From Flavobacterium sp. KACC 22761 (GTDB taxonomy: Bacteria > Bacteroidota > Bacteroidia > Flavobacteriales > Flavobacteriaceae), in NCBI RefSeq assembly GCF_034058155.1, contig NZ_CP139148.1, forward strand, positions 1,860,001 to 1,924,000: a DNA stretch of 64,000 bases. Reading direction: 5' to 3'. This document shows, piece after piece, positions 4,201 through 8,949 of this stretch (position 1 is the first letter of the stretch; each line of letters starts with the position of its first letter). The notes under the pieces were generated by a model. That model had not been told where the DNA came from, made no database searches, and saw only the letters and a list, made by a program, of their open reading frames with translations. The translations under genes and the position numbers were made by a program.

Positions 4201-5184
4201 TTATTGAATAGCATTGATTGCTGCTACCAATTGCGCCTCAGTACCGACTACGGTTTCGGCAAGAGTAAAAGTGTAAATATCGTTGGCAGCGACGGTTACA
4301 GCTTTGATCGCATAGCGCCATTGACCATTGTCTTCGGTAACAAAAATCACATGGCATTTCAGACCAATCGGGATTTGGCCATAATGTTCGCTGAATAATC
4401 CTGCAGCGGTATAAGTATCTAATTTTGCAAGTGCATTTTTTCCTTCGCCGTCGTATGACAAATAAATTGCGCTATTGTTGTTGTCATAACCATCAGGAGC
4501 ATCGGCAAGAATTGTTGTTTTTGGTCTTGGATCACTGTAAAAACGGTCCACATTTGTCCATCCAAAGTTTCCAAAAGTTACATAATAATTGTTTCCTTCG
4601 CCCTGAACACCGCCTTTTCCGTTAGCACCGTCAGCACCCGCTTTTGCTTCTCTCCAAACTAGTTCTCCTTTGTCATCAATTACGCCACTCCATAAAGTCA
4701 TGGTATTGTCAACACCATCCGTTAAAGTAGCGGGAACAATCATGCTCATTGAACAGGAAGTTTGAAGCTCAACACCGCCTTGAGTTGCTTTGATGAAAAA
4801 TTCTCCGCCAGAAATCAATAAGTTTTTCTTTCCGTCAGCAGTAATTCCCATAGTTGGTTTATTGGTAATCAACATATTTCCTTTGTCAAAAAGCTCAATG
4901 TATTCAATATCGATTTGTCCTGTTACGGCATTTCCGTTTTTGGTCAAACAATTTCCGTTAATGTTCAATTTTACACCTTTTGCCGATGTTAATGTAATCA
5001 TTCCACTTCCGGCAGTTGCAGTAAATTTTTGTGTATTTCCTTTAACTCCTTTTTCGCTGATGCTTTTAAAAGCCGCCGCCGTTGGAGGCATAATCTGGAT
5101 ATCCTCTCCATCGCTGTTGTCACAGCTTACTAAAGAGATTAGCAATAAAAATAATAGACTGATAGTTTTAAATTTTGTGTTCAT
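4201..5184 (-). CDS. Surface lipoprotein of unknown function, candidate ECF-regulon member
   Basis: 327 residues. A signal peptide of about 20 residues ends in the lipobox LVSC, with Cys21 as the lipidated residue, followed by acidic D-N-S-D-G-E-D. Such an acidic run is often associated with surface export in Flavobacteria. The body is beta-rich and contains ANGKGGVQGEG, a glycine-rich collagen-like stretch near residue 190. I do not recognise the family. It is preceded by two bipartite motifs at 5260-5289 and 5325-5354 that read toward it, and it ends at a strong terminator. It is therefore probably monocistronic and controlled by the adjacent ECF sigma factor (inference). Confidence 0.8.
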   Translation of the reverse strand: MNTKFKTISLLFLLLISLVSCDNSDGEDIQIMPPTAAAFKSISEKGVKGNTQKFTATAGSGMITLTSAKGVKLNINGNCLTKNGNAVTGQIDIEYIELFDKGNMLITNKPTMGITADGKKNLLISGGEFFIKATQGGVELQTSCSMSMIVPATLTDGVDNTMTLWSGVIDDKGELVWREAKAGADGANGKGGVQGEGNNYYVTFGNFGWTNVDRFYSDPRPKTTILADAPDGYDNNNSAIYLSYDGEGKNALAKLDTYTAAGLFSEHYGQIPIGLKCHVIFVTEDNGQWRYAIKAVTVAANDIYTFTLAETVVGTEAQLVAAINAIQ

Positions 5185-5259
5185 GATTTCTAGTTTTTAA
5201 AAAATCTGACTTGAGTATTTCAAGTGGTTTTCAGATTTTGGTTGTTACATTTATATTCT

Positions 5260-5289
5260 TAAATCAATTTGGGTTTGATTTTGTTACCC
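5260..5289 (-). promoter_or_regulatory. Candidate ECF promoter, copy 1
   Basis: On the minus strand it reads GGGTAACA, 14 bases, TTGATTTA. The spacing is identical to copies 2 and 3. The distal box lies 76 bp before the lipoprotein start. Confidence 0.6.
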
Positions 5290-5324
5290 TTGTTTTCAAA
5301 ATATTTTTCAGGCTTGTCTAACAC

Positions 5325-5354
5325 TATATCAATTCGGTTGAAAATTTGTTACCC
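5325..5354 (-). promoter_or_regulatory. Candidate ECF promoter, copy 2
   Basis: GGGTAACA, 14 bases, TTGATATA on the minus strand. It lies between the small membrane protein gene and copy 1, so it may be a second, upstream promoter of the lipoprotein gene. Confidence 0.6.
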
Positions 5355-5373
5355 TTGTTTTTGATTTTTTTAT

Positions 5374-5673
5374 TTAGGGAGATAAACATTTGTCTTCAAA
5401 AAGGTTTCCATCTTCATCGACAGCTACTAAAATGTTTTTCTTCTGCGAAAGCGAAACAATCAAATACAGCCAAACAATCGACCAAAGTCCGAATGTGATG
5501 CAGGTCAAAAAGAGGTGAAAAGAATGTTTAATGGCTTTTTTTTCTTTGGACAAAACCACATAAGGCAGTTTTTCTTTATGCTCGATAATTACAAAACCAT
5601 TTCGTTTTTTAGCCGAAATCATTTCGTAAAACTGATCCAGATTTTTCTCTTTGGTAAATTGATAGGTTTCCAT
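5374..5673 (-). CDS. Small membrane protein, candidate ECF-regulon member
   Basis: 99 residues. It has a charged N-terminal half (about 50 residues), two closely spaced hydrophobic segments near residues 50-75 (FHLFLTCITFGLWSIVWLYL) and a short polar tail, VAVDEDGNLFEDKCLSP. There is no signal peptide. I do not recognise a family. The gene is supported by its own upstream bipartite promoter-like motif at 5714-5743 (41 bp before the start) and by lying head-to-head with the sigma factor gene. It could be a sensor or a modulator of the anti-sigma system; that is a guess from position only. Confidence 0.65.
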   Translation of the reverse strand: METYQFTKEKNLDQFYEMISAKKRNGFVIIEHKEKLPYVVLSKEKKAIKHSFHLFLTCITFGLWSIVWLYLIVSLSQKKNILVAVDEDGNLFEDKCLSP

Positions 5674-5713
5674 TTCCTTTTAATTTTTTTAGTTTAAAAG
5701 AGTATTACGGCTT

Positions 5714-5743
5714 TATATCAAATTGATTTTGTAATTGTTACCC
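5714..5743 (-). promoter_or_regulatory. Candidate ECF promoter, copy 3
   Basis: GGGTAACA, 14 bases, TTGATATA on the minus strand, 41 bp upstream of the small membrane protein start and inside the divergent region shared with the sigma gene. Confidence 0.65.
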
Positions 5744-5800
5744 TGTATTTTAAAATTATTTGAGATTCTTTTTTAACTTTAACTAATCAAAAGTTTTTTT

Positions 5801-6382
5801 ATGGAGAAAATTAAAATACATCGTGACCAAATGTATATTGACGGACTTGCAGCAAATGATTCGGCTATAATTGAATCTATTTATAAAAAGTTTGTTCCCA
5901 AAGTGGTTTTTTTCGTTTTGAATAATTCAGGCGATCGAGATCAGGCGCAGGATATTGTGCAGGAAGTTATGATTTTGCTTTACAATCAGGCGAAAGCCGG
6001 CACTTTAAAATTGACATGCCCTTTTGATGCATACTTTTTTTTATTATGCAAAAGAAAGTGGCTAAACGAATTCAAAAAAATCTCGAATAAAGGGGTAACA
6101 ATTCATGAAGATGTAGTATCTATCAATGAATCGGCTCTGGAGTTAATCGCTCAAACAGAAGATTTTGAAGAAAAGCAACAGCTTTTTGATGCCATGTTTC
6201 AAAAGTTGGGAGACAAATGCCAAGAATTGTTGAAACTGAGTTTCACTATTAAATCAATGGAAGAAGTTGCCGAGAAACTAAACGTTACGTATGGTTATGT
6301 GCGTAAAAAGAAATCCTTGTGCATTGGTCAGCTTACAGAGTGGATTCAGGGAGCAAAAAATTTTAAATCTCTAAAAAAATAA
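5801..6382 (+). CDS. ECF-type RNA polymerase sigma factor
   Basis: 193 residues. Sigma region 2 spans about residues 20-90 (the segment with DRDQAQDIVQEVMILLY is the usual core-binding helix). Region 4 spans about residues 125-178, with the helix-turn-helix KSMEEVAEKLNVTYGYVRKKK. There is no sigma region 3, as expected for ECF factors. It forms an operon with the TPR/membrane gene 6 bp downstream, the normal place for an anti-sigma factor. It probably directs transcription from the three bipartite motifs on its divergent side. No copy of that motif points at the sigma gene itself, so autoregulation is not evident. Confidence 0.9.
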   Translation: MEKIKIHRDQMYIDGLAANDSAIIESIYKKFVPKVVFFVLNNSGDRDQAQDIVQEVMILLYNQAKAGTLKLTCPFDAYFFLLCKRKWLNEFKKISNKGVTIHEDVVSINESALELIAQTEDFEEKQQLFDAMFQKLGDKCQELLKLSFTIKSMEEVAEKLNVTYGYVRKKKSLCIGQLTEWIQGAKNFKSLKK

Positions 6383-6388
6383 GCAGTC

Positions 6389-7111
6389 ATGAACGAAGAA
6401 CGCTACATATTATTCGATCAGTATCTTGAAGGAGAACTTGCAGTTGAAGAAAAAAATGATTTCGAAAAACAGTTAAGTGAAGATGCACAGTTTGCATCAG
6501 AATTTGAAACTTTCAAGTCGATACAGCTTCAGTTGGAGAATAAATTTGGATTCGAAAAAGAAAGAGAAGCTTTCAAAGAAAATCTGAATCAGATAGCTGA
6601 AGAACATTTCAATAAAAAGCCGAAAGTAATTGGCTTGAAGCCTTGGTATTTGGCAGTTGCTGCATCAATAGCAGTATTATTTGGGCTTTTCTTTTTTAAC
6701 TACAATCAGAATCCGGCTTTCGCCGATTATAATCACCCCGAACAAGCTTCTTTTGCTGAAAGAGGAAGTGAAGACGGTCCTTTGAAAAATGCAGAAAAAG
6801 AATTTAATGCAAAGAGATATTCTTTGGCAATTCCGCATTTTGAAGCCGTTTTGGCCAAAGGAAAAACGCCAGAAATCCAATATTTTTACGGAATTTCACT
6901 TTTGGAACAAAGCGAATATTTAAAAGCCGAAGCTGTTTTCAATGAACTGAAAGCAGGAAACTCAGCTTACAAAGACAAAGCGACTTGGTATTTGGCATTA
7001 TCTAAATTGAAACAAAGAGATTATAAGTCTTGCAAAGAGATCTTACAGACCATTTCTGAGGATTATGAAGATTATGATGAAGTGCAATTGTTGCTCGATG
7101 ATTTAGAATAA
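6389..7111 (+). CDS. Membrane-anchored TPR protein, probable anti-sigma factor
   Basis: 240 residues. The N-terminal 75 residues are acidic and helical with the FDQYLEGEL start common to Bacteroidetes anti-sigma-like partners. One membrane segment spans residues 86-105 (WYLAVAASIAVLFGLFFFNY). The rest, residues 125-240, is TPR-like (FNAKRYSLAIPHFEAVLAKG, FYGISLLEQSEYLKAEAVF). The arrangement suggests a cytoplasmic sigma-binding end and a periplasmic TPR sensor end. There is no zinc-binding HxxxCxxC motif, so if it is an anti-sigma factor it is not a ZAS type. Start and stop are clear, and translation is probably coupled to the sigma gene (6-bp gap). Confidence 0.75.
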   Translation: MNEERYILFDQYLEGELAVEEKNDFEKQLSEDAQFASEFETFKSIQLQLENKFGFEKEREAFKENLNQIAEEHFNKKPKVIGLKPWYLAVAASIAVLFGLFFFNYNQNPAFADYNHPEQASFAERGSEDGPLKNAEKEFNAKRYSLAIPHFEAVLAKGKTPEIQYFYGISLLEQSEYLKAEAVFNELKAGNSAYKDKATWYLALSKLKQRDYKSCKEILQTISEDYEDYDEVQLLLDDLE

Positions 7112-7260: not shown

Positions 7261-8949
7261 ATGAAGAAAATTACGTTAGTACTTTTTATTGTTTTTTCGC
7301 AAAGTATTTTCAGTGCATCCAAAATCACCGAAACTGAAAAACTGGTTGCAACTTGCAAAGTATGGGGTTTCTTAAAATATTATCATCCAGAAGTGGCCGG
7401 TGGAAAAACCAATTGGGACGAACAGCTTTTGCAGAAATTGCCGAAAATAGAAAAAGCACAAACTAAAGAAGAGTTCTCCTTAATCTTAGAAAACTGGATT
7501 GACGATCTTGGCCCAGTAAAAGAAATCGCTCCTATTTCTGAATCAAAAGATGTAAAGTTTTTTGATAAAAACTTTGATTTAAGTTGGATTAATTCTGATA
7601 AATTGTTTTCGAAAAAGCTTTCGAAGAAACTCAAATTTATTGAAGAAAATAGATATCAAGGCAAACAATTTTATGTGGAAGGAAGTGAACATGTAGAAAA
7701 TGTTAACTTGAGAAATGAGCGTTATGACGATCCCAATTTTGAGGATAAAAATTCTAAACTACGTATGATATTTATGTATTGGAATGTCGTTGAATATTTT
7801 TTTCCATTTAAGTATCTAATGAGTCAAAAATGGGATGAAACTTTAATTCAGACATTGCCTGCGGTGATCAAAGCTGAAAATTATACTGATTTTTACACAG
7901 CAATGAAAAAAATGGTTTCAAAAATAGATGACAGCCATACAGAGTTTTTTATGTATAAGTCTTCGATAGGTGAAGGAAATGGAAGATTTTTTCCTGCTAA
8001 AGGAAAAATAATTGATGAAAAAATAGTGGTGACAGAAATTCTAGGAGACAGTGTTGCCGAAGCTTATAATATTAAAATTGGAGATGTCATTACTAAAATA
8101 AATGACAAAACAATTAAAGAACTTATTTCAGAAAATAGAGATTTAATTTGCGCGTCAAATGAGGCTGCTTATTTAAATAAACTCGTAAGGATTGTCCTGG
8201 CGAATACCAATGATAATGTTAAAGTTGAATTTTTGAAAGACGGAAAATACGAAACAAAAGATATGATTTGGTTTGATTATCATGAGTCGCATCGAAATGA
8301 ATTTAAAAAAGGAGCTCAGAAAAAGACGGAAAAGTTTAAACTTCTCAAAAATAATATTGGATATGTAGATATGGGAGTTATAAAACCGAGAAATATTCCG
8401 GCTATGATTGAAGCTTTAAAGTCAACAAAAGCAATTGTTTTTGATATGAGAAATTATCCATTGGGAACTTTTAGGGAAATATCAAATTTTCTAAATTCTC
8501 AGGAAAAAGAATTTGCCATTTACACACGTCCATATTATGCTTATCCAGGCAGATTTATTTGGAAGGGAGGAACAAAAAGCGGTTCTGATAATAAAGATCA
8601 TTACAAAGGAAAAGTGATTGTTTTGCTTAATGAAAAATCACTCAGCCAATCTGAGTGGACCGCTATGTGTTTTCAAACAGCGGGAAATACCACAATTATT
8701 GGAAGCCAGACTGGCGGAGCAGACGGAAATGTAAGCCAATTTGATTTTAAAGGATTTCACACACTATTTTCAGGAATTGGCGTTTATTATCCTGACGGAA
8801 GAGAAACACAAAGAATAGGAATTGTTCCAGATATTGAAGTAAAACCAACTATAAAAGGAATTCAGGAAGGCAAAGATGAGGTTTTAGATCGTGCTTTGCT
8901 TTTTATTGAAACAGGAGATTTGAAAACAGGAGCGGCTATAAAAAACTAA
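7261..8949 (+). CDS. Exported S41-family peptidase (paralog of 35339-36991)
   Basis: 562 residues. A signal peptide covers residues 1-19. A helical N-terminal region with the phrase TCKVWGFLKYYHPE is followed by a PDZ-like domain (about 240-310, containing AEAYNIKIGDVITKINDKT) and the S41 fold (about 345-545). The nucleophile is probably a serine in LNEKSLSQSEWTA, followed by GSQTGGADG. A Lys of the CtpA type Ser-Lys dyad is not evident, so it belongs to the S41 branch that uses another catalytic arrangement. It is probably a periplasmic or outer-membrane-associated protease; the substrate is unknown. It sits between two terminators and is probably a single-gene unit. Confidence 0.85.
   Translation: MKKITLVLFIVFSQSIFSASKITETEKLVATCKVWGFLKYYHPEVAGGKTNWDEQLLQKLPKIEKAQTKEEFSLILENWIDDLGPVKEIAPISESKDVKFFDKNFDLSWINSDKLFSKKLSKKLKFIEENRYQGKQFYVEGSEHVENVNLRNERYDDPNFEDKNSKLRMIFMYWNVVEYFFPFKYLMSQKWDETLIQTLPAVIKAENYTDFYTAMKKMVSKIDDSHTEFFMYKSSIGEGNGRFFPAKGKIIDEKIVVTEILGDSVAEAYNIKIGDVITKINDKTIKELISENRDLICASNEAAYLNKLVRIVLANTNDNVKVEFLKDGKYETKDMIWFDYHESHRNEFKKGAQKKTEKFKLLKNNIGYVDMGVIKPRNIPAMIEALKSTKAIVFDMRNYPLGTFREISNFLNSQEKEFAIYTRPYYAYPGRFIWKGGTKSGSDNKDHYKGKVIVLLNEKSLSQSEWTAMCFQTAGNTTIIGSQTGGADGNVSQFDFKGFHTLFSGIGVYYPDGRETQRIGIVPDIEVKPTIKGIQEGKDEVLDRALLFIETGDLKTGAAIKN

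Follow-up and report, generated by a model that had tools for sequence, protein, structure and literature searches.

Between a lipoprotein gene and the gene of an ECF sigma factor, the window (the whole 64-kb stretch of DNA analysed) carries a bipartite, promoter-like motif in three copies, and the question raised by this locus is which protein reads them. The preliminary description had located three minus-strand sites of the form GGGTAACA-N14-TTGATWTA facing the lipoprotein and a small membrane protein, and had proposed them as targets of the sigma factor encoded at 5801. The features of the locus are as follows.

4201..5184, minus strand: lipoprotein gene (SCDN lipobox by eye), presumed target of sites 1 and 2
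5260..5289, minus strand: promoter site 1, exact match, facing the lipoprotein gene; predicted transcript start 5254 (site position 36, bases TA)
5325..5354, minus strand: promoter site 2, exact match, facing the lipoprotein gene; predicted start 5319 (TA)
5374..5673, minus strand: ORF of the small membrane protein, 99 aa, presumed target of site 3
5714..5743, minus strand: promoter site 3, exact match, facing the small membrane protein gene; predicted start 5708 (CG)
5744..5800, plus strand: presumed vegetative promoter region of the sigma gene, a conserved block without the ECF motif (34 loci, by eye)
5801..6382, plus strand: ECF sigma factor, 193 aa, region 2 at about residues 28-93 and region 4 at about 134-175
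6389..7111, plus strand: putative membrane anti-sigma with a C-terminal TPR part; matches to TPR and anti-sigma models are below cut-offs

Scanning of the 64-kb window recovered all three sites with the exact N14 spacing. Their placement and facing agree with the ORF coordinates, the sites at 5260 and 5325 pointing to the lipoprotein ORF and that at 5714 to the 99-aa ORF. At one mismatch or fewer, just these three minus-strand sites were found in the window against none in 100 dinucleotide shuffles; at three or fewer, seven matches were found against a shuffle mean of 1.79. In the whole genome (5,044,592 bases) the exact motif occurs at the three window sites only, and a single one-mismatch site lies elsewhere (G000:C1:3046655-3046684, minus strand). 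A shortened motif, allowed one mismatch, gave the same four sites only, with the reversed controls at zero. Over the genome, the full motif at up to two mismatches matched at 8 places against 9 for the reversed control, which is no excess, and a looser motif with ATMTA, at up to one mismatch, gave 10 against 11. Only exact or near-exact sites were used, because degenerate genome matches equal the reversed control and are noise. The earlier statement that the window holds no other bipartite match is correct for the motif as written; it missed a conserved relative inside the sigma gene, on the plus strand at 6093-6122.

The sigma protein matches the NCBIfam model TIGR02937 (sigma70-ECF) with 58.3 bits over residues 25-180 (cut-off 42.9). 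Its Pfam Sigma70_r2 and r4 matches are under their cut-offs; it has regions 2 and 4 only, and the linker between them, at 40 residues, is within the limit of fewer than 50 set for ECF factors. With 59.9 bits against a curated cut-off of 126.4 it is not a member of the Bacteroidota ECF subfamily TIGR02985. The neighbouring TPR membrane protein has a hydrophobic stretch near residues 86-103 (by eye), and the gene order is kept in orthologous loci; its position and the below-cut-off family matches suggest that it is the anti-sigma factor, which would then share an operon with the sigma factor. Residues 43-221 of the lipoprotein weakly resemble ZU5/GAIN folds. The small membrane protein is DUF4234-like below cut-off; many loci, though not all, encode an orthologue (55-92%). 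An S41-family protease with a PDZ domain is encoded at 7261-8949 of the window, downstream of the putative anti-sigma, and is retained in a good part of the orthologous loci but not in every one; the window scans gave no motif site directly upstream of it. A stretch of TAGAAATC, perhaps a translation signal, recurs directly before start codons, at 5185-5193 (minus strand) of the window and at target genes in L018, L046, L047, L053 and L161 (by eye).

The anatomy of the motif was examined in 70 sigma loci. With spacers of 0-40 scanned, TTGATWTA stands 14 bases from GGGTAACA in 108 of 109 distinct box pairs. There are 208 distinct GGGTAACA occurrences in these loci; most of the others belong to the NATCTA class of the intragenic site or have a -10 box off by one or two letters, and a handful look unrelated. 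The scan behind the 141 distinct local contexts demanded AAC in the -35 element, but bases that it left free are constant too, with A9 in all contexts and TTG at positions 23-25 in 96, 89 and 91%. Site position 36 is a purine in 141/141 contexts, preceded by T in 73%, the pattern expected of a start site six bases past the -10 box. The consensus is GGGTAACAAWT-N11-TTGATATA, followed by a purine six bases later. The AAC of ECF -35 elements is found in GGGTAACA at the window sites; the CGT of the original ECF -10 criterion, which is not universal, is absent and TTGATATA or ATCTA is found instead. Alternatively, the boxes could be an operator, read by a conventional transcription factor whose gene lies at another place in these genomes; they are longer and stricter than many ECF elements. 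The fixed spacing and the invariant purine 6 bp after a -10-like box argue against an operator.

Each orthologous sigma locus was scored by the best match anywhere in it; the orthologues are related, and the counts that follow are not independent events. One scan covered 38 loci, comprising 34 Flavobacterium loci with an intact orthologue (L020-L053), two with a fused sigma gene (L054, L055) and the remote Chitinophaga matches L056-L057. A site at two mismatches or fewer is present in 34/34 of the intact loci, 30 of them exact, three with one mismatch and one with two. Among 31 further short loci, 24 have an exact site, four a site with one mismatch and one (L017) a site with two; in 29 of the 31 the site at two mismatches or fewer lies outside the sigma gene. 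Two intact orthologues depart from this: the short locus L157 matches the motif through an intragenic site only, and L164 has no site within its 1.5 kb flank, although the same contig of its genome (G533) carries an exact site at a distance of about 1.5 kb. The usual layout is one sigma-proximal site, which points away from the sigma gene and in nearly all of L020-L053 has almost the position of site 3, plus one to three sites before the orthologous lipoprotein gene, as at site 1. Tandem pairs about 60-90 bp apart are seen in many orthologous loci; site 2 and site 1 are separated by 65 bp. Since the signal is kept next to the sigma gene across many species, this sigma factor very probably targets the three sites.

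Downstream of the sigma-proximal site a conserved cationic micro-ORF of 21-22 aa, ending LWxLITR or IWKIITR (e.g. MKKYIKKIRRYFTKVIWKIITR), was observed in L015, L045, L047, L050, L051, L052, L053 and 12 more loci, with 13 variants in the 19 loci, some of which are overlapping stretches of one genome. It sometimes occurs in tandem units of about 156 bp with a promoter site in each. The seven loci named here have no match to the small membrane protein of the window.

Co-occurrence of motif and sigma factor was assessed across genomes, with sigma matches taken at E<=1e-20 and the motif counted as exact. Among 199 genomes of the genus, own genome included, 64 have both, 9 the sigma factor only, 1 the motif only and 125 neither (Fisher, 5e-41), so that the exact motif is present in 65 and a sigma match in 73. 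In 395 genomes of the order the corresponding numbers are 22, 6, 0 and 367, and four order-set genomes outside the genus carry both. The reversed control pattern had no match in the genus or the order motif search. In six of the nine sigma-only genomes of the genus (G025, G084, G111, G114, G147, G202) variant sites lie beside the sigma gene; of the other three, G100 and G119 have a fused sigma without region 4 and G218 has a 39%-identical sigma only. Among the six of the order set, G402 is fused, and G218 and G509 match at just 39% and 29%; the intact orthologues are accompanied by a one-mismatch site beside the gene in G382, one about 1.5 kb off in G333 and an intragenic site only in G314. 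In the motif-only genome, G118 (95% complete), the site is present and the sigma factor was not detected. The sigma gene and the adjacent gene travel together, and these data separate the two only through fusions.

Other ECF-like frames exist in the genome (27 loose first-look candidates in G000), and one such paralogue might read the sites, the adjacent sigma gene being linked by chance. Yet 20 listed of the 126 sigma-negative genomes of the genus, which hold 3 to 20 loose ECF candidates each, have the exact motif in none. The near-identical loci L017 and L053 may point the same way: the -10 is altered at all three sites, and residue 70 of the region 2 loop is a valine found in no other orthologue compared. 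Co-evolution of -10 element and sigma factor is left as suggestive only, because the two loci represent a single event and other loci have TGGATATA as well. Reading of the sites by a paralogue is considered exceedingly improbable.

Enrichment upstream of genes had been named as a check on the proposal. A single-genome test has little power because only five sites were found in the genome. The comparison was made across genomes, with a distal set of 24 sites among the matches listed in the genus motif search plus the one of the own genome. None of the 25 falls within an ORF longer than 120 aa, and each is followed by an ORF start at 25-161 bp; the proposal withstood this check. At 12 of the 25, just 25-32 bp separate the end of the -10 box from the start codon, a distance that again speaks against an operator. 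The distal site of the own genome precedes an L,D-transpeptidase gene. Of three distal targets searched against Pfam, one is an L,D-transpeptidase (YkuD), one combines RCC1 repeats with a type IX secretion tail and the third has no family; by eye, most other distal targets are lipoprotein-like or have signal peptides. The gene 42 bp downstream of the distal site in L107 (G091:C21) resembles that of the window lipoprotein (by eye). In L108 (G172:C241) the distance is 32 bp, and the ORF reached is a putative precursor peptide of 73 aa with a radical SAM-like ORF behind it (by eye), an arrangement that suggests a modified peptide under control of this sigma factor.

The transpeptidase site was followed in 36 chosen genomes (20 with the sigma factor, 16 without), and 26 of the 30 returned loci were examined. 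Ten of the 12 close orthologues, that of the own genome among them, keep the site 155-160 bp upstream at two mismatches or fewer; it is degenerate in G077 and lost in the fused genome G119. Of four more distant orthologues (59-61%), three have the site at 1-3 mismatches and one has none; in ten other homologues (41-53%) the best match has at least 5 mismatches. This is a test of position and not of sigma presence, because no close orthologue was found in sigma-negative genomes. Thus, tracking across genomes, recurrent positions in orthologous loci and distal sites all support the sigma factor encoded at 5801 as the reader of the motif.

In six genomes the sigma gene has become part of a single fused ORF (L054, L055, G072, G100, G119 and G402; the orthologous loci include L229, L230, L231 and L232). 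Sigma residues 1 to about 123-129 continue in frame into the membrane and TPR portion of the putative anti-sigma, and the fused ORF lacks region 4 and the first 45-57 anti-sigma residues. AU tests were carried out on 25 of 71 rows. One clade for all six fused rows was rejected (p 6e-60), and a grouping of L054 with L055 and L230 (G119) was not (p 0.47); at least two fusion events are thus indicated. Three independent fusions, read from a quick tree, were dropped as a conclusion because the AU test is compatible with L054, L055 and L230 together. Purifying selection acts on the fusion, as dN/dS in the sigma part is 0.08-0.10 among the genomes of the G072/G100/G402 clade. A direct repeat of 7 bases, ACAGCTT, is present in frame in the window at 6178-6184 and 6523-6529, 345 bases apart, and might explain the recurrence of region 4 deletions.

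Around the fused genes (5.5-12.4 kb), the motif is gone in five genomes (best match 4 mismatches) and altered in L054 (2 mismatches), and lipoprotein and small membrane protein genes were not found there at E<=1e-3. Of four fused rows examined, the intragenic GTAACA is lost in L054, L055 and L167 (G072) and kept in L166 (G402); the intragenic ATCTA is kept in L054. At the distal transpeptidase gene, G119 has lost the site, G100 has it with two mismatches and G072 has it exact. Since some intragenic boxes and distal sites remain, the decay of sites in the fused genomes is real but incomplete. Such decay where region 4 was lost, and the tie between motif and sigma gene, also argue against an operator, which we regard as extremely unlikely.

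The relative missed by the preliminary description lies within the sigma gene itself:

6093..6122, plus strand: fourth site, GGGTAACA-N17-ATCTA, in sigma codons 98-108, pointing at the putative anti-sigma gene; predicted start 6128 (TG)

It is located in the linker between regions 2 and 4, and its boxes have the same positions as at the other sites, with the variant -10 ATCTA. Codon usage was compared in 60 orthologues of 54-98% identity, four fused rows being left out. Where the residue is kept, the codons are GGG in 53/53, GTA in 60/60, ACA in 60/60, ATT in 53/56 and TCT in 59/59, against a median identical-codon fraction of 0.65. Among 53 four-fold-box residues kept in at least 45 of the 60 orthologues, only 98, 99, 100 and 107 use a single codon, and all four are in the site. 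Codon 106 ends in A in 60/60 across six different codons, codon 108 starts with A in 60/60, and in the one orthologue whose residue 107 differs the codon is TAT, by which ATCTA becomes the canonical ATATA. This codon invariance is strong evidence of selection on DNA.

The amino acids are nearly invariant too (V99 and T100 in 60/60, S107 in 59/60), and a constraint on protein or mRNA at 6092-6124, in place of a promoter, could be invoked. The invariance extends, however, to the third base of codon 106 over its six codons; in the rest of the gene, on average 24% of the valine codons are GTA and 27% of the threonine codons are ACA; the bases conserved here coincide with the motif boxes and keep their spacing; and GTAACA is lost in three of the four fused rows. 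A protein or mRNA constraint is accordingly judged very unlikely. As the synonymous positions of the site are invariant across 60 orthologues, a dual-coding promoter is proposed, and the intragenic site probably acts as one, judging from its motif. Its main product might be a region-4-only protein begun at ATG codon 132 (or a small RNA) and not anti-sigma mRNA. In the window this ATG lies 66 nt past the predicted start at 6128, and codon 132 has G as third base in 60/60 orthologues and encodes Met in all intact rows compared. That Met may however be structural, and the anti-sigma gene starts 6 bases after the sigma stop, by which the same transcript would reach it; a separate product as the main one is considered unlikely. 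Anti-sigma mRNA stays the preferred product of the fourth site.

From the sequence comparisons, the motif is with high probability a promoter recognised by RNA polymerase with the ECF sigma factor of 5801, which would drive the window targets, the transpeptidase gene and the anti-sigma gene. Region 4 would read GGGTAACAA as the -35 element and region 2 would read TGATATA as the -10 element. The sigma factor would be made from a vegetative, non-ECF promoter and held by its membrane partner; a plus-strand site was found within 600 bp upstream of the sigma gene in 0/34 loci, and the sigma operon appears to lack positive autoregulation, an original ECF criterion with known exceptions. Once released, it would transcribe the lipoprotein gene from two tandem promoters, the small membrane protein gene and the L,D-transpeptidase gene, and the promoter embedded in its own coding sequence would drive the putative anti-sigma gene. 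The transcriptional loop would then be purely negative, because active sigma factor makes more of its own inhibitor. Binding of the sites by the sigma factor and production of anti-sigma mRNA from the intragenic site are both inferred from the sequence, and the exported look of the targets suggests an envelope-related inducing signal.

Positive autoregulation is often used to predict ECF targets, and this rule appears to fail in the present system. The case supplies a promoter class for Flavobacteriales that is strict and testable, and a compact regulon of the envelope. It adds a likely dual-coding promoter, recognisable from the codons of 60 orthologues, and a comparative control in the repeated natural loss of region 4. 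A wider proposition, for which belief and doubt are evenly balanced, is that the sigma coding sequence across several Flavobacteriales genera embeds the promoter for its own inhibitor, with negative-only feedback, and that in Flavobacterium at least two, perhaps three, independent collapses produced a membrane-anchored, region-2-only protein under purifying selection, in which the promoter-reading half would have a new role.

At title and abstract level no description of the motif was found in the literature; this covers few subscription journals and does not prove novelty. Publications containing GGGTAAC and 'sigma factor' look unrelated, judged by title and the start of the abstract. In the published criteria, ECF factors have regions 2 and 4 only and a linker of fewer than 50 residues, and an older definition adds positive autoregulation; from that older definition the present sigma factor differs in having no CGT in the -10 element and, apparently, no positive autoregulation (PMC8103513).

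The closest likeness for the proposed circuit is SigH-RshA of C. glutamicum, where sigma and anti-sigma genes are co-transcribed from housekeeping promoters, the bicistronic transcript being sigma-independent, and the anti-sigma gene alone is driven by a SigH-dependent promoter that lies inside the sigH coding region (PMC3489674). An intragenic sigma-dependent promoter for the anti-sigma is likewise proposed here, from the site and its codon conservation; such conservation is not known to be reported for the internal promoter of sigH. Unlike the Flavobacterium system, SigH-RshA belongs to an unrelated phylum, with a zinc-type (ZAS) anti-sigma, an oxidative and heat stress regulon and GGAAT/GTT-type promoters (PMC3489674). 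The SM6 promoters of F. psychrophilum are, like the present motif, predicted ECF promoters in Flavobacterium, and secretion genes are among their targets (PMC9723704). SM6, however, has a conserved CGT at -10 and an ECF/anti-sigma operon among its targets (PMC9723704), whereas the present motif has TTGATATA or ATCTA and is not of the SM6 class. The PorXY-SigP system of P. gingivalis also includes a Bacteroidota ECF factor, which controls envelope and secretion genes, but acts in a two-component cascade (PMC4800418). In the Dma/Das systems of B. thetaiotaomicron, a membrane-spanning anti-sigma with an adjacent ECF21 sigma factor resembles the present pair, and Dma3, whose N-terminal domain acts as its own sigma factor, is a precedent for the fusion (PMC13088901). 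Dma proteins end in a beta-barrel (PMC13088901), whereas the fused Flavobacterium proteins keep sigma region 2 only and a TPR part.
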